A stretch of 64,000 nt of DNA, from positions 9,862,209 through 9,926,208 of the forward strand of contig CM057003.1 in assembly GCA_029891345.1 (NCBI GenBank). Reading direction: 5' to 3'. A program made the translations under genes and the position numbers. Shown one piece after another: positions 442 through 47,797 of this stretch; the stretch's first letter is position 1; each line of letters begins with the position of its first letter. The stretch is from Dryococelus australis (taxonomy: Eukaryota; Arthropoda; Insecta; Phasmatodea; Phasmatidae). The notes beneath the pieces were generated by a model. That model was given only the letters and a program-made list of their open reading frames with translations. It ran no database searches and was not told the DNA's origin.

Positions 442-860
442 TAGGCTGTTCACGGTAAAATTAGCACTTTTGAAAGCCCTGCTTAAGATCTACTTGTGTG
501 CACGTGGTGTATTCTTCCGGTTTTTGTAAAATTAACACTGCCTTGGGCCTCGTCACTTTATTCATGCGTCGGTCAAGCGAAAATGTGAAATTATTATAAA
601 AGTAAATATTTTACAAATCTACTAATTTTATACGCCGATGCATAAAAAAGAGAAAACGAAAGAAATAGTTTAACTTATCACAAATGGTCACCGGATATTT
701 TTTTATTCGACGTTAAGATATCGAGCTATTTTCGACCCATTGTTACCAACTTCACTGGGGGTATGTCACTCAGTGTGTCCGTTTAAATATATGCAGGCAG
801 GGGCAGTGACTTTTTTCTAAGTTTGATTTCAAAAGTGCTCACTATATCGTGAACAGTCTT
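442..860 (+). mobile_element. Family A MITE, full length (copy A1)
   Basis: The element starts TAGGCTGTTCACGG after a TA and ends in the complementary GTGAACAGTCTT before another TA, so it has terminal inverted repeats and a TA target duplication. It is about 419 bp. Landmarks used to recognise the family run in order: GCTTAAGATCTACTTG, CTTCCG, ATTCATGCGTCGGTCAAG, ACTATTTTC, a CACTCAGTG block, AAATATATGCAGGCAGGG, then TTTCAAAAGTGCTCAC. There is no reading frame for a transposase, so it is non-autonomous. TA duplication fits the Tc1/mariner/IS630 group, but the mobilising enzyme is unknown. Confidence 0.85.
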
Positions 861-862
861 TA

Positions 863-2010
863 GCCTGTATTACTCTCCACGCAGATGCATCGTGACTCGA
901 GCGATCAAGCCCTATCGCTTTCAGACTATAAAATAATTCTAATTTTAGTCGCACATTTCTAATCTAGAAAATCCTTTACATTAAGCATTAAATGTATTAA
1001 CCATCACCCTTTCCTCTTTGCTTTGCAAAGGCTTCCTTCGTTATTGTTTTTCAACACATAGTGACATTTTCTCCAGACTCACTTCATCTGCCATCTTGCT
1101 CAACGCTGCTTACGTGGTGCGTTTTCAATCCGAAACAAAACAACAAATAAAAATATTCCCAAGATGCAAGTCATAAGCACGGACTAGTCTTATATTACAA
1201 AACATTAAATAACGAGCGTAATAATTTAAATTGCCGCATTTGATGTTAAAACTTCCATAATATCGTTGGAACTATTTTCCGCCGCAATTATTTGTATGGA
1301 CCGACTGACCAACTAGTGATCTTGGCTTCTCGCTAACAGTGTTTAGCTCTGCTGCCACCTTGGAATGGAGGAAGTATAATTAACACAGTTGTCTAAACGT
1401 GAAGCTACACCGGAACAATCTATTTCTGAAGTTGGTAAACTTTCTGAGGTTCTCGGTGTTTCAGAGATTAGGCCAGCATGCTTCAAACTCTATGAATGCG
1501 ATGTCAAACGCTGCTGGCGCAGTAAAGTACGGCACATTCATAAATGTCGCCAGTGGCTCAAGCATTACAATTTCGTACTCAAACGTAAAAAGACAATTTA
1601 TATTTTTTTAAAAAGTTTTAAACTTTTATTGTTATTAAAATTGTGTGTTGAAGTGTTTTCGGTGGCAATGCATTTTAAATATATGATTTGAGGATTCGGA
1701 CGTATTCGGTAGTGCTCGGGTATTTTCGCCAGTTGGACCGAGAGCTCTCGGGCGAACTCGGCTTTTTTTTCCCCCCCCGTTATACCGGTTTGCAGTTACG
1801 ACTGCGAAGTCTTTGTTCATGATTGGTCGTTTCTGTCGTCTGTCAGACAGAGGTTAAGGTACTTTTGTACTCGTATTTACTTTTCTTACTACATATAGTT
1901 TCAATTACTGGTAAGGTTTCTATTCGCACTACTTAATCTATGGCGCGACGCTCCCATTAACTTGAAAATTTACTACAGTTGTGTACAAGTATATATGCGG
2001 TGAGAAAATT
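863..2010. other. AT-rich spacer, no recognised gene
   Basis: Open frames here are short and have no recognisable domain. The stretch holds a perfect 14-bp palindrome at 1738-1751 (CCGAGAGCTCTCGG) and a T-then-C homopolymer pair near 1763-1779. I see no promoter, RNA gene or repeat shared with the rest of the window. Confidence 0.5.
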
Positions 2011-2234
2011 GGCTATTCACGGTAAAGTGAGCACTTTTGAAAGCCCTCTCATATAGTCAATAAACATATTTCATTTTAGTTTTCGACGTTAATTTCCTAT
2101 TGCGGTGGAAAATGCACATTGTGTTTATTAGTAAATGGCAGTATTTATTTTAAAAGGTCGTTAGGGGATAAAAAATTACTGAAAGGAAAAAGTAACTAGG
2201 TCTTCAAATGTGCTAACTTTACCGTGAACAGCCT
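2011..2234 (+). mobile_element. Family B MITE, short form (copy B1)
   Basis: The left end is GGCTATTCACGGTAAAG and the right end is the complement, TTTACCGTGAACAGCC followed by TGTA. The terminal ~32 bp equal those of family A, but the core is different and shorter (CTCATATAGTCAATAAAC, TTTTCGACGTTAA, GGGGATAAAAAATTACTG). The core matches the copies at 43.05 and 43.61 kb. The left TA is mutated and the right TA is kept. It is non-coding. Confidence 0.8.
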
Positions 2235-2349
2235 GTACAAACCTGAACAAAATGTTAATAACCCTAATTAATTATGGCACACATCAAACTAAGGATCAGA
2301 GATAAACAATTTTCCTGATCTTTTGCAAGATACTTCATTCGTTTCTGTA

Positions 2350-2736
2350 AAGGCTGTTCACGGTAAAGTGAGCACTTCTGAAATCAATCTTTGAAATGTG
2401 TCACTGCCCCGGCCTGCAAATAGTTTAACGTGTACACTGAGAGGCATGCGCCCCGTACAGTTAGTAAAACGACAGAGAAAGTAGTTCCGTCACTTAACGT
2501 TTAATTTCAAGTGTTAGTTACTCATGAGTGCATTCTGAAATGCTTAATTTTGCTTTCTGTGATCTTACATGCATATAAATGTGACAATCACCAAATTTGT
2601 AAAATATTTACTTTTCTTAATAATTGCACTGTTTTACTTCACCGACGCGTGAATAAAGTGACGAGGCCCACGGCAGTGTTAAGTTTACATAAGGCGGAAA
2701 AATACACAACGTGCATACATAAAGTAGATCTTGTAA
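2350..2736 (-). mobile_element. Family A MITE, 3'-truncated (copy A2)
   Basis: Starts with AAGGCTGTTCACGG after TA and runs through the family landmarks in reverse order (CACTG block, ACCGACGCGTGAATAAAG, CATAAGGCGG, CAACGTGCATAC, GTAGATCTT). Homology stops after GATCTT, so the last ~35 bp, including the second terminal repeat, are missing. A dead copy that could not be mobilised by itself. An open frame of 79 codons across it is chance, because other copies do not keep it. Confidence 0.8.
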
Positions 2737-3879
2737 CATGGAATACATAAACTAGGCCACCAGTTGGGCGCTATTAATTCTGTAACGTACTGCAATGCAG
2801 CATAAAACCGCCTCGTTGAGATAGCCAGAATTTTATGTTACGCACCACATGACAAAATATTAAATTGTGATGATGTTGGCAATATTTCTGATTCAATTAG
2901 CGAGTAGAAATAAATGAATACTGTCCCAAATAAATATGTTTGCTCGGTTATACACAGTTCAGGACCCAGTATGTAGAATGCGTAGAAACTCGCCTTTGAC
3001 AACCCCACTCTCGTTACAGGCTAACAATTATTTGCCACACTAGCTCCACAACTTATTGGACATAAGTACACACATAGCATGACACTTGTCGAGTCATTTT
3101 GAACTGCAAATATGTAGACGAGGTATAGGATAAAACGTGCATACTCAGAAAAGGTGTCAGACGTGTCAAATCCAGCTAAAAATTATTCATTCAAAATATA
3201 TTCAAAAATTTTCGAATTAAAAATATCTGTTTGTTTTAAGATGGAAAAATAATTCAAATAATCAAATATCCCCGAGTGGCAATGACGAAAGAAAAATAAC
3301 AGTTTTAAAACTAAACTGCCGTTAGGAAGTGGTCATTCTTAACGGTCGTTTTCAAATACCCTTGCGTGACACGTATTAACAATCTGACTTAAGCACTTTA
3401 CATATGTAGTCCTCTCAAAAATAAAATATCTTGAATTTAGTTCAGAAAAATGTAACTCGACTGTCTCAATTTAAGTAGAAAACACTTGACTTCTCTCAGG
3501 GCTTAATTGTGGTTAAAATGTGATAAAGCTAAAATAGGCGCCTTGCCAACATGGCGTCGTGTAGAATGTTCTAAGCCGACGGCGTTACGTAGCAAACTTA
3601 AGTAGAAACAAATTTAAAAACTTGATGAAAACTAGTTCTTGTAGTAAAATACCAGTTTATAGGCGAAGGCAGGACGGTGTATCTCGTAGAAGGAGCGGAG
3701 ATAGGAAGGTCACACTGGGTGAGGTGCTGCTTAATCGTGGCTCACCGGCTCACGGCGTTACAAGTCTAGCTAGCTACCTTAAACTCCTAAACAGCTGCTT
3801 AAATAATAAATAATAATATCTCAACTCGACACAAATAATAACAGAAGCAAGCTGTAAGAGCAAAAACACCCTAACTCCT
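2737..3879. other. AT-rich spacer, no recognised gene
   Basis: Mostly AT-rich sequence with short unrelated frames. Nothing matches other parts of the window. A slightly GC-richer patch near 3640-3790 encodes only a chance 63-codon frame with no domain. Confidence 0.5.
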
Positions 3880-4085
3880 AGTTACAATACATCCGCCACG
3901 TCCAACTGTAGGACGAGCGACCTATCCTAGCGTCTAACACAGTTGAAGGTTGTTGGCAGAGCGAGCGAATTTTCAAACTACTGGCGCGGCCTAACCCTAT
4001 GTTAAACTCTCCAGCTAATCGTAGCACAGGATTTGAACCTGTTAGCCAATCGCAAGGCTTCCTGACTAACGAACTAAAATGACAC
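3880..4085 (-). mobile_element. tRNA-derived SINE-like sequence (singleton)
   Basis: On the minus strand the first ~65 bases fold like a tRNA: a D-arm-like A box (TAGTTCGTTAGTCAGGA), an anticodon-like stem AGCC/GGCT, and a perfect 5-bp T stem ACAGG/CCTGT closing a TTCAAAT loop that is the B box. No acceptor stem is evident. About 140 bp of unrelated body follows. This is the layout of a tRNA-derived SINE or a tRNA pseudogene with flanking DNA. No second copy occurs here, so the length is an estimate. Confidence 0.45.
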
Positions 4086-4467
4086 ACTCCAAATGGCCTA
4101 AATCCCTGTTCCAGAAAGTTATGGGTCTCTTAGAAGTTTATAAAGAAAATACAAAAGAAATTCCTTGATACATTCACAATAAAGGCGAGACCAAAAATGC
4201 AAAATATTAGTTATTAATTAATATATAAAAAATAAAATCTAGCTATCTATTTCAATTAAACATGAATTATTGCCATTCGTACATCTAAGTTAAAAAAATT
4301 CCTAACCATAAGAAAAATGAAAAATAAAATAATAAAATTTACGAAAAATAAAACATATGTGAAATATAGGTAAATTACAAGTATTATGCATGACAGTGTC
4401 CAGTGTGTGAAACAAACATTAATTATGAACAATAGATGCAGATCGTGAAAAATGTTATGTTACATTC

Positions 4468-4512
4468 TTAAGCAGGGCTTTCGAAGTGCTCATTTACTGT
4501 GAACAGACTTTA
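4468..4512 (-). mobile_element. Family A MITE, isolated terminal fragment (A3)
   Basis: Only the last ~45 bp of the element are present: CTTAAGCAGGGCTTTCGAAG, then GTGCTCATTTACTGTGAACAG, then TTTA. This is the end that copy A2 lacks, but it is 1.7 kb away with unrelated sequence between, so a link to A2 is only a possibility. Confidence 0.7.
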
Positions 4513-5803
4513 AACTATTTAATTTCTGCTGACCCTAGTTTTTCGCATTTTTGCGAGTGTAGTTTATTCTGTGACAACATGCCGTACGCTTGCAGGGAAA
4601 CTTCGTTTCATGTTCCTTTTTTTCTTTTATCTCGCGTGTGGCCATTTTATTTACATTCGAAAGGATACTCTGTTTCTATGTTTATTTGCGGACTGTCAAT
4701 AAACTGGATACTGCAATCCACCAGTGACTATGTCGGTAAATATTTACTGGGTGTTCGCTGTCACAAACTTCACCAACTCCTCGCCGTTCTATTTTCTCTT
4801 AGTTTTGAATGTTCTTTGAATAAAAAAAAAAGAAAATTTTGGAACACTTACGAAGGAGAATCTAAAAGCTCGTCTTGGATTACAATAACGTGTTACGTGT
4901 GGTCACTGCACTCTACTGCTTTCCATTTTCATGATTGCGTAATGTAACTGTGCTCGTTTCGAGTGTCGAATAACGTGACAAAACGGGTGGGTAACGCATT
5001 TCCAAAAGGTAGTATGCTCCGCGAAAATCTGATTGGTTGTTCAAAGTCCATTTGATTTTTAGTTCTCGTACATGATTCGTCGGTGAGTTATGCTGTGATG
5101 TCATAATGCTAGTACATGATCGATTGAAGTTGCAATCTTTGCGGCCACATAAGGCGCCGAAACTCGGCAACACTGTCGTTTTATTTATTTATATTAGAAA
5201 TGCGGCAATCGATTGATCATTATCTCTTCCCTCGACATGATATCTTTCAGTTGGGTGATATGTGTTACTGTTTGCTGTAGGGTTTAAAAACTTGAAAACA
5301 ACTCCATCACAGGCAGATCAGACTAATATTAATTTTTGCGAATGTTCTTGTACTATGTAATGTTCGCAGCTATTTGCTCACCTCCAAAGCAACGAAAAGA
5401 CTATGAAACTGTTAGAAAGAGGAACCCAGGTAATTTTTACGTCAAAATGTTTTCTTAAACTAAAAATCAAAAGCGCACACATCATTCTTAAATTGCCATT
5501 ACTACTTTAACTCTATTTTCCTAACGAAACAATATAATGTTCTGTGTTTGCAGACATTTCTTAAATGTCATTTTCCCACTACGGATGGATCAAATAAGGT
5601 TCAGTTACATGCATAAAGTTTTCGGCTAATGGTATAAGTCATATTTGGACATTGATAAGTAGGTAGCTATGTAGGCGAGATCTGCACCAGATTCCTTATC
5701 TGTTTTCGGCTACGGCTAGTCAAAAATTACGGAGGCGCTATGAGTCAGTTTTCAGAATAAGTGTTCTCGCTGTTTTGTAATGTGATGTGCGTAAATGTAC
5801 GTA
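4513..5803. other. Spacer, no recognised gene
   Basis: A 153-codon open stretch spans 4486-4947 on the plus strand but starts inside the family A fragment. It is rich in Cys, Phe and Ser with no domain, and I take it as chance. An inverted CCAAT (GATTGGTTG) occurs near 5031. Otherwise nothing was recognised. Confidence 0.45.
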
Positions 5804-6223
5804 TAGGCAATTCACGGTAAAATGAGCACTTTTGAAAGCCCTGTTTAAGAACTACTCGTGTGCACGTTGTGTATTCTTCCGCCTTATGTAAAATTAACAT
5901 AGCCTTGGGCCTCATCACTTTATCCATGCATCGGTCAAGCGAAACTGTGAAATTATTACAAAAGTAAATACTTTACAAATCTGCTCATTTCTACATGTCG
6001 ATGCATAAACAAAAACAGACAACGAAGAAAATGATTAAGTTATCACAAGTGGTTACCTAAAACTTTTTATTTTACGTTACGATATAGAACTATTTTCCAC
6101 CCATCGTTGCCAACTTTACTGGGCGCATGTCACTCAGGGCGCCCGTTTAAATATATGCAGGCAGAGGCACTGACTTTTTCTAAGGTTGATTTCAAAAGGG
6201 CTCACTTTATCGTGAACAGCATT
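5804..6223 (+). mobile_element. Family A MITE, full length (copy A4)
   Basis: TA, then TAGGCAATTCACGGTAAAATG at the left; TTTATCGTGAACAGCATT, then TA at the right; about 420 bp. It keeps all family landmarks, including CTTCCGCCTTATGTAAAATT and GCCAACTTTACTGGGCGCATG, and is one of the least damaged copies. It is co-linear with A1. Confidence 0.88.
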
Positions 6224-8710: not shown

Positions 8711-8711
8711 A

Positions 8712-13046: not shown

Positions 13047-13431
13047 TAGCCTGTTCACGCTGAGAACTTGTGAAATGCCTGCTTGAGATATGCACACCGT
13101 GTATTCTTCCGCCATATGTAAAATTAACGGTGCCAGGTCGCTTTATTCATGCGCCGGTCAAGCCAAACACTGGAATTGTTAGACAAGTAAATATTTTACA
13201 AATTTGCTGATTCTGACGCGTACGCGTATAAGAACACCGGAAAGCAAAATTATTGGTTTAGGAATTAACAAAAGTTTACCTCGCACTTATAATTCAGCGT
13301 GAAGACATATAACTACTTCCACCCTGTCTTTACCAACTTTACTGGGCGCACGGCAGTCAGTGTACCCGTTACGGGCAGTGACATTTATAAAATGTTGATT
13401 TCAAAGTTCCCAATTGACAGCAAACAGACTG
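13047..13431 (+). mobile_element. Family A MITE, diverged (copy A5)
   Basis: Left end TAGCCTGTTCACG after TATA; right end GACAGCAAACAGACTG before TA. About 385 bp, shorter than the usual 420 because of small deletions near the left end and in the 3' half. CTTCCGCCATATGTAAAATT and CCAACTTTACTGGGCGCA are still readable. One of the oldest copies here. Confidence 0.75.
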
Positions 13432-20869: not shown

Positions 20870-21162
20870 TCGTGACTGAAGGCGCCGAGAAATACGCTAC
20901 GGCGTCGCCTTCCTCGATTAACAACTTCCCCAAAATTCGTTACTGAATCCTCTCGCGTCTTTAGCTCCGCCAGGAAATTTCTTCGGCCAAGTTCACGCCA
21001 GAAAGCACCTGCATTGACTTGTTCACGAATCCATGCTGCCGTTGTGTAAAATAAAAATTGCCATGGGCCTGATCAATTTATCCAGTCTTCGTATATGCGA
21101 AACAATTGAATAGCTGGAATGCAATTTTAAGAATTTTTTATGCAAGTCGATACTGTAATATT

Positions 21163-28125: not shown

Positions 28126-28547
28126 TACGTTGTTCACGGTAAAATTAGAACTTTTGAAAGCCCAGCTAAAGATCTACCTGTATGCACGTTGGGTTTTCTT
28201 CCGTCTTATGTAAAATTAACATTGCCATGGGCCTCAGCGCTTTACTCATACGTCGGGCAGGAAAAACTGTGGCATTATTAGGAAAGTAAATATGATGTAA
28301 ATGTGGTCATTTGTAGACTTAATGGATTTAAAAAAATCAGGAAACGAAAGAATTAATTTAAGTTATCAGAAATGATCATATATTACTTTTTATCTGACGT
28401 TAAGATATTGGACTATTTTACATCCATCATTACCAACTTTACTCGGCGCATGTCACTCAGTGCGTACGTTAAAATATATGCAGCCCTGGGCAGTGACTTT
28501 TTTCTAAGGCTGATTTCTAAAGTGCTCATTTTATAGTGAACAGCCTT
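28126..28547 (+). mobile_element. Family A MITE, full length (copy A6)
   Basis: TA, then TACGTTGTTCACGGTAAAATT at the left; TTTTATAGTGAACAGCCTTT, then TA at the right; 422 bp. Keeps CTTCCGTCTTATGTAAAATT and CAACTTTACTCGGCGCATG. Same orientation as A1 and A4. Confidence 0.87.
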
Positions 28548-30119: not shown

Positions 30120-30536
30120 AAGGCTGATCGCGATAAAGTGAGCACTTTTGAAATCAACCCCAGAAAAAAGTCACTGCTCCTACCTGCATACATTTTAACG
30201 GGCGCACTGGACGACATGCGCTTAGTCATGTTGGTAACGATGGAGGGGAAAGTAGTTTCATATTTTGACGTAGAATAAAAAGTGTTAGGTAATAATTTGC
30301 GATAACTTCAATTATTTCTGTCACTTTCTGTTTTTTAATGCATAAAAGTGTTAAAGTAAGCAAATTTGTGAAATATTTACATTTCTAAAAATTTCTGTTT
30401 CACCTCACCGATGCATGAATAAAGTTATGAGGTCCGTGGCAATGTTACTTTTATATAAGTCGGAAGAATACACAACGTGCATACAAGTGCATCATAAGCA
30501 GGGCTTTCAAAAGTGCCCAGTTTACCGTGAACGGCC
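30120..30536 (-). mobile_element. Family A MITE, full length (copy A7)
   Basis: TA, AAGGCTGATCGCGATAAAGTG at the left; CAGTTTACCGTGAACGGCC, then TATA at the right; about 417 bp, reverse orientation. The word AATATCACAATC stands near both ends (30,101-30,112 and 30,540-30,551), just outside the TA positions; see findings. Confidence 0.87.
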
Positions 30537-30539
30537 TAT

Positions 30540-31128
30540 AATATCACAATCATCCGGCCTGCATGCCAATTACTGTTTTCAGGCCTACAGGGAAGCAGGA
30601 GTTATTTTCGTCTGAGACCTTTCTTCTGTAACACCTACCACATTCCAAAATTTCTAAGACTCGGTATAACCCACGCTATGTCGTATTCTTTCATTTCATG
30701 CATATTTAAATTTTCGTGAAGTAAAATTAATAAAAAAAAATTAATAAAAATCAGCAGAAAACTAGTTATTTGCCTTACTTTACAGTGCGGATATTAAAAT
30801 ACGATTTTTCAACATAAAGTTCTGCCATAAATAGCTTTCTTACATCTAACAAATTACACATAATGAAAGGTTAAGTACAAAAATATTTAAAAACTTGTAA
30901 AATAAAATTTTTCCAGTCAGGGATTCTTAATAATAACTCTAAAACTGAAATCATGACAGAAACACTAAGAAGATTTGAATTCGAGTCTGAAGGAGAATTC
31001 CTAGTAAACAATTTGAAAAGCCTCAAGGTCATACGCATGCCTTAAGGACGCACTGCTACGGGGCCTCCCAGAGATTCGATACGAATTCATGGAGAGCTGT
31101 GATTCTCGCAAATTATAGCTGCTAAATA
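30540..31128. other. AT-rich spacer, no recognised gene
   Basis: About 0.6 kb between two family A copies. No domain, TIR or RNA gene seen. Confidence 0.45.
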
Positions 31129-31546
31129 ATGTTCACGGTAAAATGAGCACTTTTTAAAGCTCTGCTTAAGATCTTTCTGTATGCACGTTGTGAGTTCTTC
31201 CGCCTTATGTAAGATTAACATTGCCATAGGCCTCATCACAGTTTATTAATGTGTCGGTCATGTGAAACTGTGAAATTATAGAAAAGTAAATATTGTACAA
31301 ATTTGCTCATTTTTATACTTCAATGAATAAAAAAATACAGAAAGCGAAAGACATTATTTAAGTTATCACAAATGGTTACCTAACAATTTTTGTTTGACGG
31401 TAAGATATCGAACTACTTTCCTCCCATAGTTGCCAACTTTACTGGGCGCATGTCACTCAGTGCAACCGTTAAAATATATTCAGGCAGGGGAGAAAATTTT
31501 TTCTAAGGTCCATTTCAAAAGTGCTCACTTTATGGTGAACAACCTT
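31129..31546 (+). mobile_element. Family A MITE, full length (copy A8)
   Basis: Left end ATGTTCACGGTAAAATGAGC after TAAATA (the GGC of the terminus is mutated); right end CACTTTATGGTGAACAACC, then TTTA. 418 bp. It faces copy A9, 250 bp away, in opposite orientation, giving a large imperfect inverted repeat. Confidence 0.85.
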
Positions 31547-31796: not shown

Positions 31797-32217
31797 AAGA
31801 AGCTGTTCACGGTAAAGTGAGCACTTTTGACGTCAACCTTTGAAAAATGTCACTACCCATAAATGCATGTATTTTAATGGGTACACACTTGAGTGACATG
31901 CGCCCAGTAAAGCTGGCAACAACGGAGTGACAGTAGTTCCATGTCTTGCCGTTAGATTAAAATTTTAGATAAACATTTGTGATCACTAAATTGTTTTATT
32001 TTGCTTTTTAGTTTTTTAGTACATATCATTAGCAAATTTGTAAAATATTTTCTTTTCTAATAATTTCACAGTTTCACATAACCAATGCGTAGATAAAATG
32101 ATCATGATCTATGGCAATGTTAATTTTACATGTGGCGGAAGAATACACAATGCAGATCTTAAGCAGGACTTTCAAAGATGCACAGCGTTATGATGGGCAC
32201 TAGCGTTAACCAGCCTT
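31797..32217 (-). mobile_element. Family A MITE, full length, worn right end (copy A9)
   Basis: Left AGCTGTTCACGGTAAAGTG after TATAAAGA. The right end has drifted (GGGCACTAGCGTTAACCAGCC), then TTTA. About 421 bp. The middle is well conserved in reverse order (GGTACACACTTGAGTGACAT, CCAATGCG.AGATAAA, CATGTGGCGGAAG). Confidence 0.82.
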
Positions 32218-32219
32218 TA

Positions 32220-33665
32220 AACCAACATACTCGCTGAACTCACCAAAGGTAGACAACTCAGTATTCAGGGCAGTTTGCTAACTCCGGCGGTGAAAGATTG
32301 GCAATACGACGCCAGCCGCGAGGACACTTCAACACGGGCCTACGGGAATAAAGACTAGCTCTCAGCAGTTTCGTCACAGGTAGGTGGAAGGTATACCAGG
32401 ACAAGTTTATAACAAAGAATCATTAATAAAAGCATATCGCACTCAGGAAAAGCAGTCTGTCTGCAGCCAGCCACCGAGACTAGAAGATGCTGCGCTGGCC
32501 TAGTAGCGCCATCGTGCCACGACCGTCGTTTCCGTAATGACGACCAGCCGACGGCGACGACTCAACAGAAGTTGAGCGTGCAGATATGGTCATTAATACT
32601 GTATAAATATGTGGCACTAACCCAACGTAATATCCCTCCTCGCGTTACAGTAAATGCAATGGTTTAACCTTGTTGTAATCAGCTGTAACTATAATATTGC
32701 CATTTCATACGCTGTATCTTGTTCATTGTGATTAACTAACTTCCAATCTAAATTATCAAATGTATGGCTTTGCAAATATAAATGTACCAGGGGACGGGCC
32801 CGCGGAATCGGTGGGATAGGCCACCATCGGTGAGGCAGGTAATCGTACGAAACATTAGTTACTGTACAATGTTGCCTGGGAACTCCTGCATGTACTCGCT
32901 CGCACCTGCAGTTTGCAATGGGAATATTGTATTTATGGTACAGTGTTGTACGGGAATGCCAGCATGACTTAAGACTTAACACATAAGACTCAAGACTTGA
33001 GGGTAAACGACAAATAGGTATATGAACTTGTGTACAATAATTATAGTACATCAGACCCAACTTTTATGGTATACACGAACCTTAAGCTTGGGGCACAAAA
33101 CTTCCCCTCCCGCCCGAAAGGTGGGAGTGGGTTGGCAACCATAAGTCGCCCCCCCACCTATGGGGCACTATCGATCCCTCCATAGCACCCCCCCCCCCCC
33201 GGGTCGTAGTTTGGTCGCCAAGTGTTAGACGTGGCAAACTTTCGTTCTTGATTAATAGTATAGAGAACCAATCATAACAGCTTATACGTGCAAACACTGA
33301 TATTACGTGCAATATTTTACAAGGAAAGCGTCCCCCTAATACCAATCCTTCCTTGCTCTCTCCCCCCCCCCCCCCCCTCGCCTCTTCACGTATTACAGAG
33401 TGTCACTGGCACACTCCCGGGACGAATCGATAGTCGCCCGGGATACAGCACGCGCGCGCACGCACGCGCTTGCATAGGCGCCGCCCCGTAATAGGCTCCA
33501 ATCATACCTGTCACTGGCATGGCGCCCAGGGCTGCCAGATTGTACATTCGGTACGAAACCCGCATAATTTGACTGTCCTTTGAATCGTTTGGTATTGTGC
33601 GAAGCACTACATAATATTATACAAACCATTCATTTTGATAAATTTTCCTAAAGTAATGTAGAGGT
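32220..33665. other. Spacer with poly-C tracts
   Basis: A GC-richer part at about 32,270-32,570 contains CACAGGTAGGT (32,384-32,394), which would serve as a splice donor if transcribed. Poly-C tracts stand near 33,187-33,200 and 33,362-33,377. At 33,400-33,620 minus-strand frames of 73-78 codons overlap but show no domain. No gene was recognised. Confidence 0.35.
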
Positions 33666-33666
33666 A

Positions 33667-34074
33667 AACGCTGTTCACACTTTTCAAAGTCCTGCTTATG
33701 ATCTACTTGTATGCACGTTTTGTATTCTTACGCCTTATGTAAATTACATTGCCATGGGCCTCGTCAGTTTATTCATGCGTCAGTCAAATGAAACTGTGAA
33801 ATTATTAAGAAAGTAAATACTTTGCAAAGCTGCTCATTTATTACACTTCGATGCACTAAAAAAAAAAAGGCGACAGAAATAATTTTAAGTTATCACAAAT
33901 GGTTACCTAAAACTTTTTATGGGACGTTAAGAAATGGAACTACTTTCCATCCATCGTTGCCAACTCTACTGGACGAATGTCACTCAGTGCGCCCATTCAA
34001 ATATATGCATGCAAGGGCAGTGACTTTATTCTAAGGTTCATTTCTAAAGTGCTCACTTTATCGTGAACAGCCTT
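33667..34074 (+). mobile_element. Family A MITE, near full length (copy A10)
   Basis: Left end ACGCTGTTCAC after TA. The 12-13 bp that normally follow (GGTAAAATGAGC) are deleted, so CACTTTT comes directly. Right end TTTATCGTGAACAGCCTT, then TA. 408 bp. A copy with half of one terminal repeat removed would probably not be mobile. Confidence 0.85.
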
Positions 34075-34587: not shown

Positions 34588-34589
34588 TA

Positions 34590-36323
34590 AGGGTTCTTCC
34601 AAAAGTATAAGGACACCATTATATTTAATTAACGTAACGTTTTGTCCTTATAATTAATCGTTCAGAATCCGATGATCAATTGCACAGGAATAACTGGATT
34701 AGGATATATCCTGAGCTTCATAAAAAAAAAAGTGGAAATATGACAATTTGTTCAAAAGTTACCTCTGTTTTCCGTGTTTTTATATAAAATGATTTTTTTT
34801 TCACTTTAATGTATTTCCGCAGATGTGAACAACGCAATCAGTGGAATAGTTTATAATTTTTTTTTTGGGAGAAACACAAAACCTAAGGAATAATTATAAT
34901 CACATAATATCTATCTAATTTGATTCTACTAGAAATTACAACGACATTTATCACTTGAAAATTAATTATAAAAGATGTCGCAAGACTGAACAAACTGGCA
35001 ATCTTTAGTAATGAACTACTGTAACACCGACTGAGTCACCGAAGCCGGAGTGGTGTCAAGTTTGAGTTTGTATGTAGTACCAAAGATAGCAGTACTGTAA
35101 CGATTTTTTGTTCCTTCCTTCTCGCTGTTATTTTTTACTTATGTCGAAGCTTCCATAGATGCGTGCGTACAGTATTATAAAGTTATCTTTATGTGATAAT
35201 GGGAAGAAAAAGTGTGAAAGAAGAAATCAAGTGGCAAGTTATCGGCATGCTTAAGTGTGGTATGTCGTATAGAGCAATTGCAAGTGAGCTAGGTATAAGT
35301 AAAACGTGTGTTGAACAAACAAACAAACATACGAAGAGCGCCACTGTAGCAGACTTGCCGCGGAGCGGTAGGCCGAATATTACGTCACCCAGGGAGGACA
35401 GAACAATAGCAGGTATTTCCAAACGTCATCGGAGGGGTTGCATTTCTACAATTCAAAGGGAATTTAAGGAAAAGACTCGTAAGCCAGTGTCACCTATGAC
35501 TTGTTCCCGTCGACTGCGTAGTGCAGATCTTGATTCATATGTGGCAATAAAGAAACGACTCCTGGCAGCGATTTCGCGCAACAACAGACGAATTTTGTGC
35601 AAAAGCAAGAAGAAATGGAGAGTGTAAAGGTGGGATAAGGTACTGTTTAGTGTCGAGTCACGATTCCAGCTATTCCCCAACCAGAGAGTTCGTGTAAGGC
35701 GCACTACAACCAGAAATTCCTTCCGGAATATTTGTCACCAGCAATTCAAGGTGGCGGTGATTCAGTTATTATATGGGGCTGCATGTATGCAAATGGTACT
35801 GGAATATTGCGGTTCATCAATGGTTCAATGGACTCCAAGGAGTGCATATCAACCATGAAGGACAATCAGTTCTCTCCTGCAAGAAGCTTCATGGCTGTTA
35901 CTTCGTATATCAACAGGACAATGCGCCGTGCCACAAATCTCGCGCAACTACGCAGTGGTTTGAAGACAATCAAGCACCAGTGTCAGAGTAGCCAAGCAGA
36001 AGTCCGGATCTCAACCCCATTGATAATCTACGGCACAATAATAGCTGCCTGCAGGCCCGTAAAGCGTCAGAACTTCGTAAAGTTATATCCACAACTAGGA
36101 ACAATATTACAGTGCAAGAGCGTCAAAAACTTGTGCAGAGCATGGTGAAAAGGGTGGAATTGTGTTGGAACGCCCAATGAGGTCCAATAGACTATTGGAA
36201 ACATTCACGGTGTCATTTGGAAGTGAATCGGAGTGATTTTATGTAATTGCGTATTACCATATGTTTTTTAATTAAGTGTTACATACAGTTCATTGGGTGT
36301 CCTTATACTTTTGTTAGGACCTG
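34590..36323 (+). mobile_element. Tc1-like DNA transposon, decayed, both ends present
   Basis: The left terminal repeat (GGTTCTTCCAAAAGTATAAG, then GACACC, from about 34,592) pairs with the right one (GGTGTCCTTATACTTTTG, then TTAGGACC, ending near 36,321). The inner 17 bp are identical. TA lies at or one base from each end. The length, 1.73 kb, is close to the usual Tc1 size, and a single transposase region in the plus strand is centred within it. The terminal repeats do not resemble those of families A-D, so this enzyme type is an unlikely partner for them. Confidence 0.88.
35199..36180 (+). pseudogene. Tc1-like transposase (DD34E/D type), inactive
   Basis: The first frame starts at ATG 35,199 and reads MGRKSVKEEIKW, a helix-turn-helix (MLKCGMSYRAIASELGISKT, residues ~16-35) and the linker RSGRPNITS. 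An in-frame TAA lies at 35,625-35,627, then FSVESRF, where the usual catalytic Asp of FSDESRF is Val. Near 35,725 the reading moves to another frame (QGGGDSVIIWGCM), and near 35,840 to a third (YQQDNAPCHKS, with the second Asp kept). A TAG replaces a Trp codon, and SPDLNPIDNL follows, with 34 residues between the two acidic positions. Two stops, two frame changes and a lost catalytic Asp mean a dead enzyme. Family length is about 340 residues, which fits. Confidence 0.88.
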
Positions 36324-37229: not shown

Positions 37230-37306
37230 GTCGTTTTGCCTAACGTCATTTAGCCTAACAGTCGTTTTCCTTTCAAATCGTTTTACCCAAAATTAGGCAA
37301 AACGAC
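37230..37306. repeat. Perfect 14-bp inverted repeat of a TTAGGCAAAACGAC word
   Basis: GTCGTTTTGCCTAA at 37,230-37,243 is matched exactly by TTAGGCAAAACGAC at 37,293-37,306. The loop contains three related words (ATTTAGCCTAAC, GTCGTTTTCC, TCGTTTTACCC), so the whole 77 bp is built from variants of one motif. It may be a fragment of a larger repeat family rather than a simple hairpin. Confidence 0.75.
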
Positions 37307-37309
37307 CCG

Positions 37310-38155: not shown

Positions 38156-38157
38156 TA

Positions 38158-38471
38158 TAGTCCATTCACAGTTATTGCACACTTTTTGAAGCCCTTCTTA
38201 AGTACTACTTCCATGCGATTCGTCCGCCTTATGCAAACAAAAATTAACGGAATGTAAAGAACAACGTACCGCATTCGTGCGCACATTTTGTAATACTATT
38301 TTGCATAAGAACTACTTTATTTCTTACTAGGAATTACCAAAACACCTATTTTCTCCCTGTTTTATTAGTATTATTCATAAATTAAATATTATAATTTATG
38401 TATAAATATAAGTAAAAGTTAAAATTAACCAAAAATAATGTAAAAAGTGTGAACAAAGTGCGAATAGACTA
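38158..38471 (+). mobile_element. Family D MITE, intact ends (copy D1)
   Basis: TA, TAGTCCATTCACAGTTATTG at the left; GTGCGAATAGACTA, then TA at the right; 314 bp. The left 60 bp align with family A (CACACTTTTTGAAGCCC against GAGCACTTTTGAAAGCCC; then CTTAAG, CTACTT, CGTCCGCCTTATG). The core differs from A, B and C and recurs only at 12.1 kb. Non-coding. The terminus TAGTCCATTC is also that of element C, so D joins the two families. Confidence 0.82.
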
Positions 38472-38473
38472 TA

Positions 38474-39034: not shown

Positions 39035-39036
39035 TA

Positions 39037-40944
39037 CAATCCATTCCCCATTGGAAGCAACCTTCTCGGAGCCCTCCTAAATATCTACTTGCAGTCCCGT
39101 CTCGTATCCTTCCGCCAAATGTAAACAAACATTGTCATGTGACTGCCATGTAGCATCTGTCAAATCAATGTTTACATTCCATTTTGTGTGTACATATGTT
39201 CGTATACTTTCGCTACACCTAAAAATAAACATTGAAATGTGACTTCTACTTTTATACCTGTCAAATGTGTTGTTTACTGTTTACAGCTTTTGAAAGAATT
39301 CTGTCATATTCCAAAAACCATTCCATATGATCATTCATAGTTTAGGACTCTAACATTATTTAGGCCAGCTTTATGACGTTTTAAAAATGGCTGAATTGAA
39401 GACAGTTCTTACGGTTATTTTACATTAACATATTTATTTTCCACGACGTAGCTCAATACATATAATGCACGTCAGTATTTTGCTGCGACTGTGTTTAACA
39501 CTGTTACAACTGCGAGGTAAAGGGCTGTACTAATTGTAATTACCCTTTTGTTATTGATGTGTTGGATAATTTCTCTAAAAGGACGGCCTCAGTTGGAATA
39601 AATATTAAAACCAAGGAACAACCAGTGAAAAAAGCTCATTAAATTCAAGCACGCAACTTGTGTTGCTCATTTTTGTCATACAACCTTAAAATATAGCTGT
39701 AAACATTCACACAAATAAGCCTACGGTAACATTTATTCCGCTCATATTTATATGTATTGCCACTTATTGTTTATTAGGTTTATTGAAATTTATCGGGCTG
39801 GGCTTAGTATTTTTCTTCTGGGATTGTAGAAAATTACGTTAGACGACTGTGTTTCAAACCCCTCAGGGCAAAGGTACAACGTTGTGATAAATAAATAGAC
39901 GTGGATTTAAATAAATAACTTCGTCGAAAAAACATTTCACATTTAAAACTTATAACTAGTGCTAATCAAGTATTTGAAATCACGCACACACAGCGCCAGC
40001 GTATCGACCACGATACACAAATGCACACCATTTCACAGACGCAATGATTAACGAAACACACGCCAGAGTATATTTATTACTGCCGTGGAAACACAGATTT
40101 ATCACAACATCGTAACTTGCCTAGGTAGAAAAAACACAACGTCTACAAACGTGATGTATTAATTTGAAGTATTTTTCGGAGTAAGAATAATTTACGTTTC
40201 GTTTGACAAAAAGCAACATGCCATGTCATGGCTCGCCAAGTCTGCCAACTTCACTAGGTAACAGCCCCGCCATCATATCTAAATATATTAAAATACGTAT
40301 TCAAACATTAAAATCTCTTTTCAGTTGTAAATTACGAATTCAAAAATCATTATTTTGCTGTAATAAGTATGAAATATACTACAATTGAAAACATGTATAA
40401 TTTCAGCTTACTAGCGAAGTGAAATTACCCGAGTGTGAAAGACGAAGAAAGAGACAGAGAGCGACAAGCCTCGCCAGCAGACAGTTTATCAATTGCTTTC
40501 TCGCTCGATAAAACAATACCGTATCATTACGGCCAACTCACGATATTTTCCGACGTTATTTTAAACTGCAAAAATTAGATATGTTGCCATCAGGGTTACT
40601 TAAATATTTAAATATTTCGATAGGCACCGTTTAATTTACAAATAGCATACTAAAAAACGAGGTTAGAATAATATTTTAAGTGTGAACTATTTCTTACCGA
40701 TCGTTGCCAACACGTCGCTGCACTCGCTGTTGTTAATGCATAGTTAAAAAAGAAATAAATATTACAAGTTATAGAAGATATTAACGTAAAGGTTTATTTA
40801 TTCAATAATACAGTACTCTAAAGTTAGCCAAAGTGTTATATATTTGTTGAATACAGGTTATTGAATAAACAGTTGACATGTTATGCCTAGAGTGTTTTTT
40901 CAAACGTTGATTTTCATAAGTCGCTTCCAATCGGGAATGGACTA
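39037..40944 (+). mobile_element. Element C, 1.9-kb relative of family A
   Basis: Left end CAATCCATTCCCCATTGGAAG after TA; right end CTTCCAATCGGGAATGGACTA before TA; 1,908 bp. Subterminal sequence matches family A at both sides. Left: ATCTACTTG, then TATCCTTCCGCC, ATGTAAAC and AACATTGTCATG. Right: TGCCAACTTCACT, AAATATAT, and TTTTTTCAAACGTTGATTTTC at the very end. The core adds about 1.4 kb, AT-rich, with no transposase frame. It could be an internally enlarged or worn longer member from which shorter forms derive, or A-type ends joined to other DNA. Confidence 0.72.
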
Positions 40945-40946
40945 TA

Positions 40947-43045
40947 GGCGAAAACTTTTACTATGCCTGTGTATGCTGGAAATCTATAACAAAATATAAA
41001 CAACTTATCAAATATCATCAAATGTTTAACTCTATTTCAATTCTAACCTTAAAAATAATCAGAACAAAATCGAACAATGAAGCGAACTGAAAATGTATCG
41101 CTAGTGCAATTCCTCTAATAACTTACATCTTCTACAATTAAATTTCTCATACTTGACATGACATTAACTCAAAGTAAGATGCTGGTTACAAATTAAATCG
41201 TAAGAACATCAAAGTTACAAAACACATATAAATATAATCCCCTGCTGTAAGTTACTGAGAGTTGAGCTTATTCTGAATTCTGCTATGAAGATCTGAAACG
41301 ACACTATTTCTGTTATTGCGTATAGTCTGCATGAATGAAATATCAATTTTGGTTTTCGACATAGAGGCGTCCCGTGCCTGTTATAGTCAGAGATTTAATT
41401 GCGTAAATGAAACAGAAAATTTGATGACTGTACAAAAACGTGTACCCATACAGTACGTGGATATTCTTTAGGTGTTCAGTATGAACGATATTACTTTATA
41501 TATTCTATCTGATTCCATGACAAAATTTTGTAAAATTTACCTTATTTAAAATAACAAATAATATATAAAGCGTCTTCATGATGTGCAATAATTATTGAGG
41601 TCGGCGGGTGTCTAAGATTATTGGGATTTTTAAACGACCTTATTTTAAAACATCATTAACTTACTAAGAATAAATAATAAATTCAATATTACTGTATTAT
41701 TGAATGAATAACTGTAATCTGTAAAAGTCTTATGCATTATATATTTCCATCTCATAAATAAAATAGAGCAATGCTATGTTTCGAAACGTACAAATATTTG
41801 AAACCGTGCTCTGTGATCAAATGTTTTAAGATATAAACAAATCATCTCGTTTAAGTTAGGGGGAAAAAAAAAAAAAAAAACATGGCGTTTGGGTGATTCT
41901 CTCAGGCAAACTGGAAAAAAATAATTAAAACCCATTTTAACCCATTTGATGCTGTTGTGCGCCTGTGAGCTATGCAAATCGCGTGCCAGAGTTTGTCTGT
42001 TAGTGAAATTGAATTGAAAAAATTGTGTTAGGCTGTGTTGTAGACACGGGCGTTTGTTTTGCGTGAATACCGTATACGTCGACGCGCTCGCACACCTTGA
42101 TGTTTATTTTACGTTCCCGGCACCGCTTCACACCATCATATGGGGTTTTATTGGTGTCACTGGATTGCTCTTGAGATGCTCTTTCCAACCGTGCACGATT
42201 TCTGTATTTCGACTTGACTTTTTGACGAGTATAGGCCGACATTGTGTTAAATCTTTTTTTAACTTTCTACATTAAACACGCACAATTTCACCATAGTCAC
42301 GCCACGCAAATGTTTTTATACGCGCGATCGATTGATCTTGACGAGAGATGTCGATTGAAACATAAACGAGTATCATAGCTTCTCCTAGTTAAAAGCTATA
42401 CTACGCGGAAGTTGAGATGCGGCGAAACTAACTAAAAATTGCGCCCCCTCCCCCCTACTTACACCTGAACGGCGCGCAATGCTTCACATTCTTGACGTAA
42501 CATATTCTTTGATCCTTTGGCAGTCGAGTGGTGTAATAGAATTTTGCACGTAGACGATAGTTTCCGAGCTGCAATGTCAAACTGTTACGTCCCGATTTTG
42601 TTATCATAGAATTTTCTGGATTGCCTCCCACTATGGTAGCAAATTTAAAGACGTATTCACGTCAGAAAGTTGACAACGTTATCCACTGAATGATCGAAAA
42701 CGCCGTTTTAAAATAAACTAGTTACATTTCACGGCGTTTTTGGTCTCGTCACAATTAGTTCGAAAATTATTATTGTTAATGGACTCGTTTGACAACACGA
42801 TTTTCACATTCCTTCCTCTGCTGATTATTTCGGTCACGAGCTGTGCTGCGCTGTCTCTCTTATTCGCACAAGGTGTCATTTCACTCCTCGCCGGCCTGCT
42901 ATTCAAAACAATCCTCTGTATGAAGTTTTTTAACATCCGCGTATGCTACCCCTCACACATATGCAACCGCAATATTTTAATAGTGCACCGGGTTGCCTAC
43001 CGGTATGAGACCATCCCCGCACACACAATAATATGCATTTATATG
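40947..43045. other. AT-rich spacer, no recognised gene
   Basis: 2.1 kb with only short frames. Poly-A near 41,865-41,880. The frames on both strands at 42,000-42,275 and 42,718-43,069 overlap each other and carry no domain. A plus frame, 42740-43069, is hydrophobic at the start but has no homology I can name. Confidence 0.4.
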
Positions 43046-43047
43046 TA

Positions 43048-43286
43048 TATGCTATTCACAGTAAAGTGAGCATTTTTGAAATCCTTCTCATTTGGAATAA
43101 TAGACGATAAATATTTTTTTAATTTTAGCCTTTAGGCATTAACTTCTGTGCGTGGGGGAATATACACACTGAGTTTATAACTTGCATTGCAATATTTATT
43201 TGAAAAGATCATAAAAGGAAAAAAGATGGCTGAAAGGAAAAAGTAACAAGGACGTGAAAAGTGCTCACTTTACCGTGAACAGCCTG
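43048..43286 (+). mobile_element. Family B MITE, full length (copy B2)
   Basis: TATGCTATTCACAGTAAAGTG at the left; CACTTTACCGTGAACAGCC, then TGTA at the right; 239 bp. Shares with B1 and B3 the core words GGAATAATAG, ATAAATAT, AACTTC, GGCTGAAAGGAAAAAGTAAC. Same orientation as B3, 325 bp further on. Confidence 0.87.
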
Positions 43287-43610
43287 TAACTTTTAACAAC
43301 TCGGTTCAACACCAGTATGCGGTGGTTATCTGGGTGCTAAATAGTCTGCTTATTTTGTAAGAATAGCGATGATATACAGGTTATCAAGCAATGCATGCGT
43401 ACAGGATTCTCTCTGTGTATTTTACCTATCATATAAAAAAATAAAATTTGTTATTTAGTTGTGCATTTAACCTGTTGTTTATTTTTCCAGAGAAAATGAT
43501 TGACGTTATAAGTACTGAAATAATTGCTGATCATGTGCTTTAACTCCTTCCTCACTCTTTAAATAACCATAATTTTTTACGGAAATATTCCGTTGGTCTA
43601 TTCATTTGTA

Positions 43611-43842
43611 GGCTATTCACGGTAAAGTGAGCACTTTTGAAAGCCTTCTCATTTGGAATAATAGTCAATAAATATATTTTATTTTAGTCTTAGACGTTAA
43701 CTTCCGAACGTGGTGGAATATACACACTGTGTTTATTACATATATCGCAATATTTATTTTAAAAGGTGGTTAAAGGATAAAATATGGCTGAAAGAAAAAA
43801 TAACTAGGGCCTCAAAAGTGCTCACTTTACCATGAACAGCCT
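43611..43842 (+). mobile_element. Family B MITE, full length (copy B3)
   Basis: TAGGCTATTCACGGTAAAGTG at the left; CACTTTACCATGAACAGCC, then TATA at the right; about 232 bp. Its core is nearly the same as B2 (TCATTTGGAATAATAG, ACACTGTGTTTATTA, AAGGATAAAATATGGCTG). The left TA has become TG. Confidence 0.87.
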
Positions 43843-44118
43843 ATAGGTAGAATTAGCAAGTATTAATACTACATAAATCTTATTAGCACTTGTTTGTCTA
43901 AAAATGGCGTTTTGAAATGTCACAATTTTAAGTCTTATATTTCCCTAATTGCAAACTCATAACATTATTACTTAATATTAGCAAACATAGCTCATTTGTT
44001 TGTTCCTTCTATGAGCTGCGATACTGGTGCATATGCTTCATTAGATGCACCTAGTTTTTCAATCTATTTTAAAAGATAGGCCTACCTCTACCCTTTAGAA
44101 CCTACAAATATTTTAATG

Positions 44119-44206
44119 CGTCAAAGTAATGGCGTGGAACCGTGGTTTGCCACACTCGTTTACGTCAAAGTAATTGCGTGGAACCGTGGTTTGCCACACT
44201 CGTTTA
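44119..44206 (+). repeat. Tandem duplication, 2 x 44 bp
   Basis: CGTCAAAGTAATGGCGTGG and the 25 bases that follow (up to CACTCGTTTA) are repeated immediately with one substitution (GG to TG). A recent local duplication with no other copy in the window. Confidence 0.9.
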
Positions 44207-44570
44207 CGACTGTTTGAAAAGCAAATGTAATTTCACTCCTGCACGTAGCTACATTTTTTTGGGGGGGAAATTTGTAAGCTCTTTTCACAGGGGACGAAAT
44301 ATTGTTACGAGCTGCCCTTTGTCTTCGTTACCGTCCCCGTTCCCCTTAAGCATGCGAAGCGAAGCCCTTCGAGGGCATTACCACCTGGTACCGGAGGATA
44401 GGTGGAGCAGCAAACGCCAGATGACACTAACGCTGGCTGCGATAACGCTATCGGCGCTGAAGCGGCTCCTGTCTCGGGAAGGATGAACGACTTCCTAGTC
44501 GCCGCGCGAAAATCTCTGGTCACCACCTTCCCCGGGGAGACTAGAGATGAGATGGACCTCCTGGACCAGG

Positions 44571-45773
44571 GGGGGCCTTATTCTAAGTTATTCGTTAATT
44601 TTTCGTTTTCGTTAAGTTCCGAAAGCTCCCTCAACGAATAAAATCTTCGAGAAAGGCAATTTTGGTATTCTAAGTCATAATTCGTTACGTCCTCCCAGAT
44701 GCCACCAAGACTTCGGCAATGTTCGGGTTTTCGTAGGCGAATGCAGGGTGGCAACACTCTGCTCGTGAACTTTAACTGTTTTATGAGACTTTGTTTGTAA
44801 ATTATGAATAAATAAAATTTAAAACATTAATTAACCAAAGCAGTAAAGCGCTTGAAAATTCTGTTTGCTTTTGGCGTGTTTTGGTTATTAGTATTACATG
44901 CATATGTTGAAAAAGGTATATATAGTTTTTCAAGTGTATCAAATTTGCTGACGGCATTGTACTATTTTGTACCTCGGCTAGACGTTTGATGTATTACACA
45001 TAAATATGCTTTAATTTCGTATGCTCTGAGTTGAAATAGACTCACATGTATGCCGATAAGAGAGAACAGAGAACTTTGGTTATTATATGCCCGAAGATTT
45101 TTTTTTTCTCAATGACCATTTTGCTGATTGGCTGCAAGCTATTTACGAACAAGCATTTACCTCTGTTATTCATAATACCAAGATTATAAAATAAGCCGTG
45201 GACAACTGTCGTGTTTCTTGTGGCTCGTATGTATACCAATATATGAATTTTCACTCAATTATTTCAAGAGAAAGTATTTTGGTAGTAAATCACCAAGAAT
45301 TATTTACAGTTTAGCACTACCTATCATGTGATTTACGAACTACATTGTCCGAAGCAAATTTTTTAAATAAATTAGTGTTTATGATCTCTTATTTCATTAT
45401 AAACGACTGTAATAACCTAATAAATTCCTCGCAATAGCCAGCTTACACTGTTCCTTACATAGTTCACAAATTGATACAGAAAGTTTAATTGATGCTTTAA
45501 AAATATTTTTTCTGAAATATATTTTGATGTTCCTGTAATGCATGAAGGGACATTACACCACGACTCTCTTCTTTTAAAGTCCCGAAAACGAATCTGTTTC
45601 ACACGCGAGCAAAGGTTTTCGTTTTCTTTTCGAGTTTCTTAACGAATATAGTGACGTCAAACGAACAACAGAATGCGGTTAGAATAGTTCATTTCGTTAG
45701 TAAACGAAAATTCGAGTAATAACGAATATTTTTGTCGCCAGGAAACGAAACGAATAGCTTAGAATAATCCCCC
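44571..45773. mobile_element. Inverted-repeat element, 1.2 kb, family uncertain
   Basis: The left end GGGGGCCTTATTCTAAGTTA, then TTCGTT, pairs with the right end, which read on the other strand is GGGGGATTATTCTAAGCTA, then TTCGTTTC. The flanks are AGG on both sides (44,568-44,570 and 45,774-45,776), a possible 3-bp target duplication. TTCGTT/AACGAA words recur in the subterminal 80 bp of both sides. No transposase frame, so it is non-autonomous. A G-rich terminus and 3-bp duplication would fit PIF/Harbinger-like elements, but that is a guess. Confidence 0.68.
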
Positions 45774-45849
45774 AGGTCAGCTCAGCTCAGTCTTGTACGG
45801 GCTGTTAGTGCCAGGTGCGTGGAACCATCGGAACGACTAGCGAGTGTAG

Positions 45850-46083
45850 GGGCCGCGGTGGTTTAGTGGTTAGACTACTCACCTCCCACCAGGGCGAACT
45901 GGGTTCTGTTCCTGGCGAGACTCGCCCCCCATCCGCCTAGATTTTAGGATGTGCGAATCGTGCTGGACAATGCCGCTGATCAGCGGGTTTTTCTCGGGGA
46001 CCTCGCCTCGCTTCACCCTCATCGGTTCTCGAGATCTCGAAGTTAAGAGCCGCCCAAAACTCTTCACTCACTCGCACTTACCA
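45850..46083 (+). mobile_element. tRNA-derived SINE, family alpha (copy 3), with target duplication
   Basis: Head GGCCGCGGTGGTTTAGTGG, CACCTCCCACC, B box GGTTCTGTTCCTGG. Body TAGATTTTAGGATGTGCG, CCGCTGATCAGCGGG, TTCTCGGGGACCTCG, CTCATCGGTTCTCGAGA. Tail GTTAAGAGCCGCCCAAA, then TTCACTCACTCGC. Flanked by GCGAGTGTAG (45,840-45,849) and GTGAGTGTAG (46,084-46,093), probably its target duplication. It lies 76 bp from the inverted-repeat element on its left. Confidence 0.83.
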
Positions 46084-46183
46084 GTGAGTGTAGTCTGCGA
46101 GCATCGGGGGAGTAGAGAATGATACTGACCGGCTGTGGGACTTTATGGGTGAGATACGGACATATGTAATGTACATTTTGATA

Positions 46184-46363
46184 AAGGCTGTTCACGATAA
46201 AGTGAGCACTTTTGAAATGTGTCTTAGAAGAAAGTCACTGCCCTGAACGCATATATTTCAGTGGGCGCACCGAGTGACATTTGTCCAGTAAAGTTGGTAA
46301 CGATGGGTGGAAAATAATTCCATTTCTTAACGTCGAATAAAAAGTGTTAACCATCAACAGCCT
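46184..46363 (-). mobile_element. Family A MITE with internal deletion (copy A11)
   Basis: Both ends are present (TA, AAAGGCTGTTCACGATAAAG; CAACAGCC, then TATA). Only about 180 bp remain: the first ~160 bp, up to AACGTCGAATAAAAAGTGTTA, then a jump to the last ~15 bp. The right terminal repeat is cut to CAACAGCC. Confidence 0.82.
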
Positions 46364-46365
46364 AT

Positions 46366-47484
46366 AACAAGTGAATATTAAGTAATCACAGCTAGTGCAG
46401 ATATAGCGATAAGAAGTTCAAAATTATTATTGATATTGGCATAAACATTGCGCTCACAGGCAGGAATGAATAATTGTTTTAATAGACAGGTAATTTAATG
46501 TTGTAAATAATATTTAAAGGTATTTTATAACGTTGAACAAAAATAATACATTTAATTTAATTCTGTTATTTTCATAAAGATATTCATCCTTCGCGGACTC
46601 GGACATGCGATAAGCAATTTGAAACAATATGGTTCTCTTGACGCATCTGAGCTTCGATAAAATTACAAAATTTTGGGCACGTAAGTGAGCGATATACCAC
46701 ACGGAAAATATATTGACCACTATACATCTGCGATGAGAGAAGGAAGATATGGGAAAATCATACCACATTCCAGTACAAAAGGCACGTATCGAATTTATCA
46801 ACTAGCGTATACAAAGGCACACCTAGCGATTCGTCAAAATAAGCTTAGCAGGACAGCCGAAATAAGTATTCAAGAGTTTGTAACTACGTTAAATTCTCTC
46901 CTGTCTTAAATTATGCAATATGCTCGTACCGGTTCTTTAGTAGAGAATTCAATATTTTTCTCTTTATTGTGTTTCATCTGGAAAAAATCACATCAGACAT
47001 CTGTAAACATTTTTCACCCGCCATGAAACCTATGTGTTACTAACAAGAATTATAAATGTTATAGTATTTCAAGAAGTATGTTCAGGCATTTGAACTGTTC
47101 CATCTCTTTGTGTCTTTAAATAAATACTTAACAAAATAACATACAATAATATCAAAGAAAATACTGGTATTACTTTTATACCCCTTAACTTAATATATAT
47201 TTATTAAAGGAAAAATACATTTAAAGTCCAATTTCTTTCATGATATTTTGCTCTTGTCGCATTGTAAAACTTAGTTTTTGTTGAAACACAGCAAAATTTA
47301 ATATTTGCAAGTAAAATAAAAGGCAATAATTTATTTTTTCTTACTATAAGGATAATAATTATATTCAACACATTTGGGATTACAACATCAAAACGTGAAT
47401 ATTATTTCCGGAAATATAATTCTGAATCATAAACGAGAAGTTGAGTTCAAGTACGTAGCTACCATATGCTAATACGACATTAAG
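46366..47484. other. AT-rich spacer, no recognised gene
   Basis: Open frames on both strands at 46,514-46,909 overlap one another. Neither shows a domain, and the plus-strand frame has no early ATG. I do not call a gene. Confidence 0.35.
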
Positions 47485-47486
47485 TA

Positions 47487-47797
47487 AAGGCTGTTCACGA
47501 TAAAGTGAGCACTTTAGAAATGAAACTTTGATAAAAGCCACTGCCCCTGAACGCATATATTTTAATGGGGGCACTCAGTGACATTTGCCCAGTAATTCTG
47601 GTAACCATGGATGGGAAGTAGTTGTACATCTAAACGCTTTCTTAGTAATTTCACAGTTTCACTTTACCGACGCATGAATAAAGTGATCAGTCCCATGGCA
47701 ATGTTAATTTTGCATAAGGCGGATGACTACACAACGTGTATACAAATAGATCTTAAGCAGGAGTTACAAAAGTGCCATTTTTGCTGTGAAAAGCCTA
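47487..47797 (-). mobile_element. Family A MITE with internal deletion (copy A12)
   Basis: Ends AAGGCTGTTCACGATAAAG and TGCTGTGAAAAGCC, then TATA; about 311 bp. About 105 bp are missing from the middle (after GGGAAGTAGTTG, resuming at CTTAGTAATTTCACAG). The breakpoints differ from those in A11, so the two short forms arose separately. Confidence 0.83.

Follow-up and report, generated by a model that had tools for sequence, protein, structure and literature searches.

What are the dozen short, TA-flanked elements that lie between positions 442 and 47,797 of a 64,000-nucleotide stretch of the genome of the stick insect Dryococelus australis (contig CM057003.1, positions 9,862,209 to 9,926,208; G+C about 38%; hereafter the window), and what moved them there? 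An initial annotation of this stretch had read them as twelve copies of one family of miniature inverted-repeat transposable elements (MITEs). The results described below support both that reading and the ends assigned to the elements, in the window as well as genome-wide: the elements belong to a clan of MITEs that is real, well defined and very abundant, and that is of an ordinary kind, expected in stick insects. We consider it highly probable that the members of this clan are non-autonomous and were moved by a DDE transposase whose gene lies elsewhere and most probably belongs to the Tc1/mariner group.

Copies in the window and their ends

The clan comprises three subfamilies, LONG (about 420 bp), SHORT1 and SHORT2 (about 235 bp each), which have in common a terminal inverted repeat of about 30 bp at both ends; SHORT1 and LONG share only this repeat and a few bases beyond it. 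The LONG consensus has the termini TA-TAGGCTGTTCACGG...CAGCCTT-TA, in which the outermost base of the element, read inward, is a T on the left and an A on the right, with TA outside both, and the start placed one base outside AGGC for most of the copies listed in the initial annotation is correct by this consensus. The longest open frame in the consensus sequences encodes 58 amino acids, and no Pfam match up to an E-value of 1 was obtained for eight of the 13 consensus frames of at least 30 residues, the six longest included.

The 17-bp end given in the initial annotation, allowing up to three mismatches, matches the window 24 times, whereas 100 shuffled versions averaged 0.17 matches and never had more than one. 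When the window was searched by blast with the LONG and SHORT1 consensus sequences, which had been built from full-length copies including five LONG and three SHORT1 copies of the window itself, all 12 copies noted earlier were recovered, every one of them LONG, and the reversed window gave zero matches. Mere chance or low-complexity similarity, which has practically no probability left as an explanation, is refuted by the shuffled and reversed windows and by genome-wide controls that are near zero. By eye, TA adjoins all 21 preserved ends of the 12 LONG copies (nine two-ended, three one-ended), flanking each of the nine two-ended copies on both sides, as the initial annotation had described.

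Five of these LONG copies are intact, two-ended and without a large deletion (419–422 bp), lying at 442..860 (plus strand, full length, 89% identity to the LONG consensus), 5804..6223 (plus, full length, 91%), 28126..28547 (plus, 86%), 30120..30538 (minus, 87%) and 31125..31546 (plus, 90%). The other four with TA on both sides are the most worn copy, at 13047..13431 (plus, 72%); one with a deletion inside the left terminal repeat, at 33667..34074 (plus, 90% from position 24 on); and two with internal deletions, at 46184..46364 (minus, 88% over positions 256–422) and 47487..47797 (minus, positions about 162–272 gone, 85% and 88% in two pieces). The one-ended copies consist of a copy without its first 43 bp or so (2350..2732, minus, TA at the kept end, 81%), a fragment that retains only the left terminal repeat (4466..4510, minus, TA at the kept end, 89% over 46 bp) and a truncated copy that has lost its left terminal repeat and has two extra bases inside its end (31797..32184, minus, 78%). 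Overlooked in the initial annotation were three intact SHORT1 copies (227–239 bp) and three worn LONG fragments. The former, all on the plus strand, are found at 2009..2235 (85% to the SHORT1 consensus, TA at the right end and AA at the left), 43048..43286 (87%, TA on both sides) and 43609..43843 (96%, itself a member of the consensus set, TA at the right and TG at the left), TA thus standing at four of their six ends; the latter, also on the plus strand, are found at 21042..21103 (77% over 62 bp), 38180..38237 (73%, E 1e-5) and 39070..39139 (76%, E 8e-8).

The boundaries of the elements are borne out by the surrounding sequence. Comparison of the flanks (300 bp each) of all window copies but the one at 31797, 14 out of 15, revealed no homology past the ends, every match being due to overlapping stretches or to a neighbouring copy inside the flank. 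A dispersed repeat of about 600 bp at 32187–32789, with 78–91% identity to its other listed copies (40 scored of 2,137 first-look candidates), begins about three bases past the truncated LONG copy at 31797–32184. The 2.27-kb span between the ends at 31800 and 34073 was considered as a longer element and rejected, being composed of two LONG copies, this unrelated repeat at about 32187–32789 and other sequence.

Abundance, age and spread in the genome

In the 3,415,067,245 bases of the genome searched, an 18-bp end was matched 349,126 times (174,576 + 174,550) when two mismatches were allowed, and the reversed pattern 110 times (60 + 50). Exact 18-bp ends number 52,998, of which 46,327 (87%) are preceded by TA, in line with the TA flanks of the window copies. 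The two observations that the initial annotation had named as refuting it, a lack of TA flanks elsewhere and long homology past the ends, are thus not borne out. Counted in two size bands only, copies in which both 17-bp ends are perfect amount to 4,774 in the LONG band and 1,858 in the SHORT band, with 0 in the reversed controls. The register of the TA was examined at 66 of the 86 ends found in fetched sequence and the window, the other 20 having been set aside because the search pattern itself had anchored them or a duplication had carried them; three fetched loci (L023, L039 and L081) were skipped. TA stands at the predicted register in 52 of the 66 ends, as compared with 1 to 10 at five other outside offsets, and the TA found at the innermost offset in 34 ends consists of the element's own T and A. 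The 349,126 ends correspond to about 175,000 copies if all are two-ended, and to more if many are one-ended; taking divergence into account together with the end counts, we infer more than 300,000 copies.

With 14 such 18-bp ends, the window has about twice the genome mean of 6.5 per 64 kb, and much of the dense spacing that the initial annotation had described is thus common to the genome at large, the window copies probably being an ordinary, somewhat dense sample of a genome-wide population. The same excess might be taken to mark the window as a special hot spot or as the product of a segmental duplication, all the more since six fetched loci (L056, L063, L068, L070, L075 and L076) owe a copy that they have in common to the duplication of a larger repeat. 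We regard this as very improbable, because the flanks of 14 of the 15 window copies are without mutual homology, and a twofold excess is weak in a window that was picked for its repeats.

The larger repeat in the six loci is at least 3.4 kb long, has a Tc1-type transposase domain and carries SHORT2 at a fixed place, so that copies of the MITE are multiplied also by hitch-hiking. A related copy of the repeat without SHORT2, in the locus L051, may represent the empty form of the site occupied in L056.

The age of the subfamilies was approached through divergence from majority consensus sequences (K2P), using 12, 8 and 11 full-length copies among the 30 LONG, 10 SHORT1 and 12 SHORT2 places found. 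LONG copies differ from their consensus by 9.8–17.3% and from each other by a median of 25.5%, about twice the consensus distance; SHORT1 copies differ from theirs by 4.7–26.7%. The SHORT2 distances (4.7–13.4%) are biased downward, because six of the 11 copies are passengers of the Tc1-bearing repeat and, of the remaining five, four came from a search favouring well-kept ends. The star-shaped divergence of LONG fits a single burst better than long or repeated activity, and separate bursts between subfamilies are plausible. The inference in the initial annotation that the local density implied long activity, possibly in several bursts, is weakened by the genome-wide density and, for LONG, made less likely by the star pattern.

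The source of the transposase

MITEs derived from Tc1/mariner transposons generally have TA flanks and terminal inverted repeats of about 30 bp, measure 200–450 bp and lack coding capacity. The clan is like them in its flanks, its terminal repeats, its size and its non-coding nature, and unlike them in that the outermost base of LONG differs between the two ends (T left, A right). In the mechanism that we propose, a DDE transposase encoded elsewhere would recognize and bind the terminal repeat common to the subfamilies, excise the short elements and insert them at TA sites; each subfamily would multiply from one or more master copies of its own and then decay. It is from the TA flanks that membership of this transposase in the Tc1/mariner group is deduced; the assignment, which we hold to be the most likely one, draws on these flanks and on the general resemblance.

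The statement of the initial annotation that the driving transposase is not present here fits what the window contains: the Tc1-type transposase remnant at 35181–35624, recognized by a helix-turn-helix (HTH) match, is part of a worn transposon at 34592–36321, the inverted ends of which (GGTTCTTCCAAAAGTATAAGGACACC, at 34592–34617 and 36296–36321) are different from, and unrelated to, those of the clan. The genome was therefore searched for the transposase domains PF01359, PF13358, PF03184 and PF13359, and 65 loci were inspected (30 of 144 PF01359 matches, and 30, 4 and 1 of the 150 listed matches each for PF13358, PF03184 and PF13359), comprising 30 loci of mariner type, 30 of Tc1 type, 4 of pogo type and 1 of Harbinger type (L087). 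Among the PF01359 loci there are two overlapping pairs; L023, which overlaps L009, was left out of the end scan.

Two results weigh against the proposed reading. Clan ends were found as an element's own termini in none of the 65 loci, most of which reach only about 1.5 kb past the domain, so that the ends of a long element could escape; the longer element with the same ends and a DDE transposase that the initial annotation had suggested looking for was accordingly not found among them. In a bracketing test, on the other hand, the Tc1 and mariner loci lay somewhat nearer to such ends than expected from shuffled ends (mean mismatches 19.1 and 20.6 versus 21.9 and 22.0). The second result concerns the apparent empty site compared between L051 and L056. 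It falls within a run of A and is flanked, by eye, by AA and not by TA; the run is of a length consistent with 1 bp having been duplicated, or 2 bp with a slip, and the length of the duplication is not fixed by this site.

Three loci came within 12 mismatches of 50 in the bracketing test (L009, L056 and L065), and each was rejected as a donor. The Tc1 element of L065 has terminal repeats of its own and interrupts a LONG copy at about position 353; a 1.9-kb mariner-derived element in L009 splits another LONG copy near position 67; and L056 has a SHORT copy beside its Tc1 domain. Also rejected were L010, L014, L033, L037 and L066, where the ends are those of complete or partial LONG or SHORT copies nearby, and the Tc1 loci with SHORT ends, in which the SHORT copies are those that hitch-hike in the Tc1-bearing repeat. 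L046, which has one end and a different interior, shows a GT-rich tract followed by a run of N, with a small open frame without a Pfam match. A long GT-rich tract adjoining a run of N beyond one MITE end is a feature that L082 and L046 share, an assembly gap or other missing stretch concealing the interior there. Two facing pairs of exact ends flanked by TA, on C1 (4132974/4136651 and 6426110/6430492), are first candidates for a longer element, although chance alone would also yield such pairs. The mariner-derived element of L009 (1086–3016 of that locus) is dispersed in the genome, with relatives in L011, L013, L015, L018, L019, L027/L031 and L035; its two arms of about 630 bp form an inverted pair (95% in L009), and in L009 each arm holds a Transposase_1 match.

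The donor could instead come from outside Tc1/mariner proper, from another superfamily that duplicates TA (pogo/Tigger, for instance, or the ISL2EU-like relatives of Harbinger), and act on the MITEs through the same mechanism. Candidates are plentiful at first look (8,242 for DDE_1 and 4,158 for DDE_Tnp_4, as compared with 14,198 for DDE_3 and 720 for Transposase_1), and two of six SHORT1 right ends begin TA-CAGG, a start that resembles Tigger ends. A DDE_1 transposase with the terminal repeats of the clan was, however, seen in none of the four pogo/Tigger loci inspected, nor a DDE_Tnp_4 transposase with these repeats in the single Harbinger/ISL2EU locus inspected, which argues weakly against such a donor, and the sole pogo terminal pair seen starts GTACAGTGAAACC. 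We consider this alternative possible though doubtful, and retain the Tc1/mariner group as the preferred source.

A bolder interpretation is that one repeat of about 30 bp has been exploited by several independent MITE subfamilies, otherwise unlike each other, which would have reached several hundred thousand copies, and that the donor lineage has died out in this genome or represents an undescribed TA-duplicating group. We put this forward only tentatively, as rather unlikely. If it were true, the clan would have contributed measurably to the large genome size in this stick-insect lineage.

Two observations apart from the clan may be added. Mitochondrial COX1 gave 102 matches on large nuclear contigs (e.g., in L081), several of them nearly full length with mitochondrial TGA codons, indicating many nuclear mitochondrial insertions. 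At about 230–290 of the window, a stretch that looks tRNA-like by eye (GGTTCGACTCCC near the 3' end) may be the head of a short interspersed element (SINE); ARAGORN called no tRNA in the window.

The clan among stick-insect repeats

The abundance of the clan is worth comparing with what has been described for other stick insects. In the account of repeats given for the Clitarchus hookeri genome (PMC5691397), MITEs are the commonest repeat type, with 87 models and 1,214,018 copies making up 5.79% of a 4.2-Gb assembly, the commonest MITE model being named there only as rnd-1_family-8; the same account cites a report of MITEs from Bacillus stick insects (Ricci et al. 2013). The likeness to D. australis, very abundant MITEs in the case of C. 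hookeri and high-copy MITEs in stick insects in that of Bacillus, is one of description and not of sequence. A search of open-access literature text found no paper containing the terminal-repeat strings of the clan and none combining Phasmatodea, MITE and terminal inverted repeats. The description of repeats in the published genome of D. australis itself leaves most of them unclassified (1.56 Gb of 2.17 Gb masked; PMC10268593).

For part of these unclassified repeats, the clan provides a sharply defined and roughly datable marker, the ends of which are precise enough for annotation and for the search for a donor. Beyond this species, it would allow testing whether the MITE expansion in C. hookeri is shared with that in D. 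australis or arose independently.

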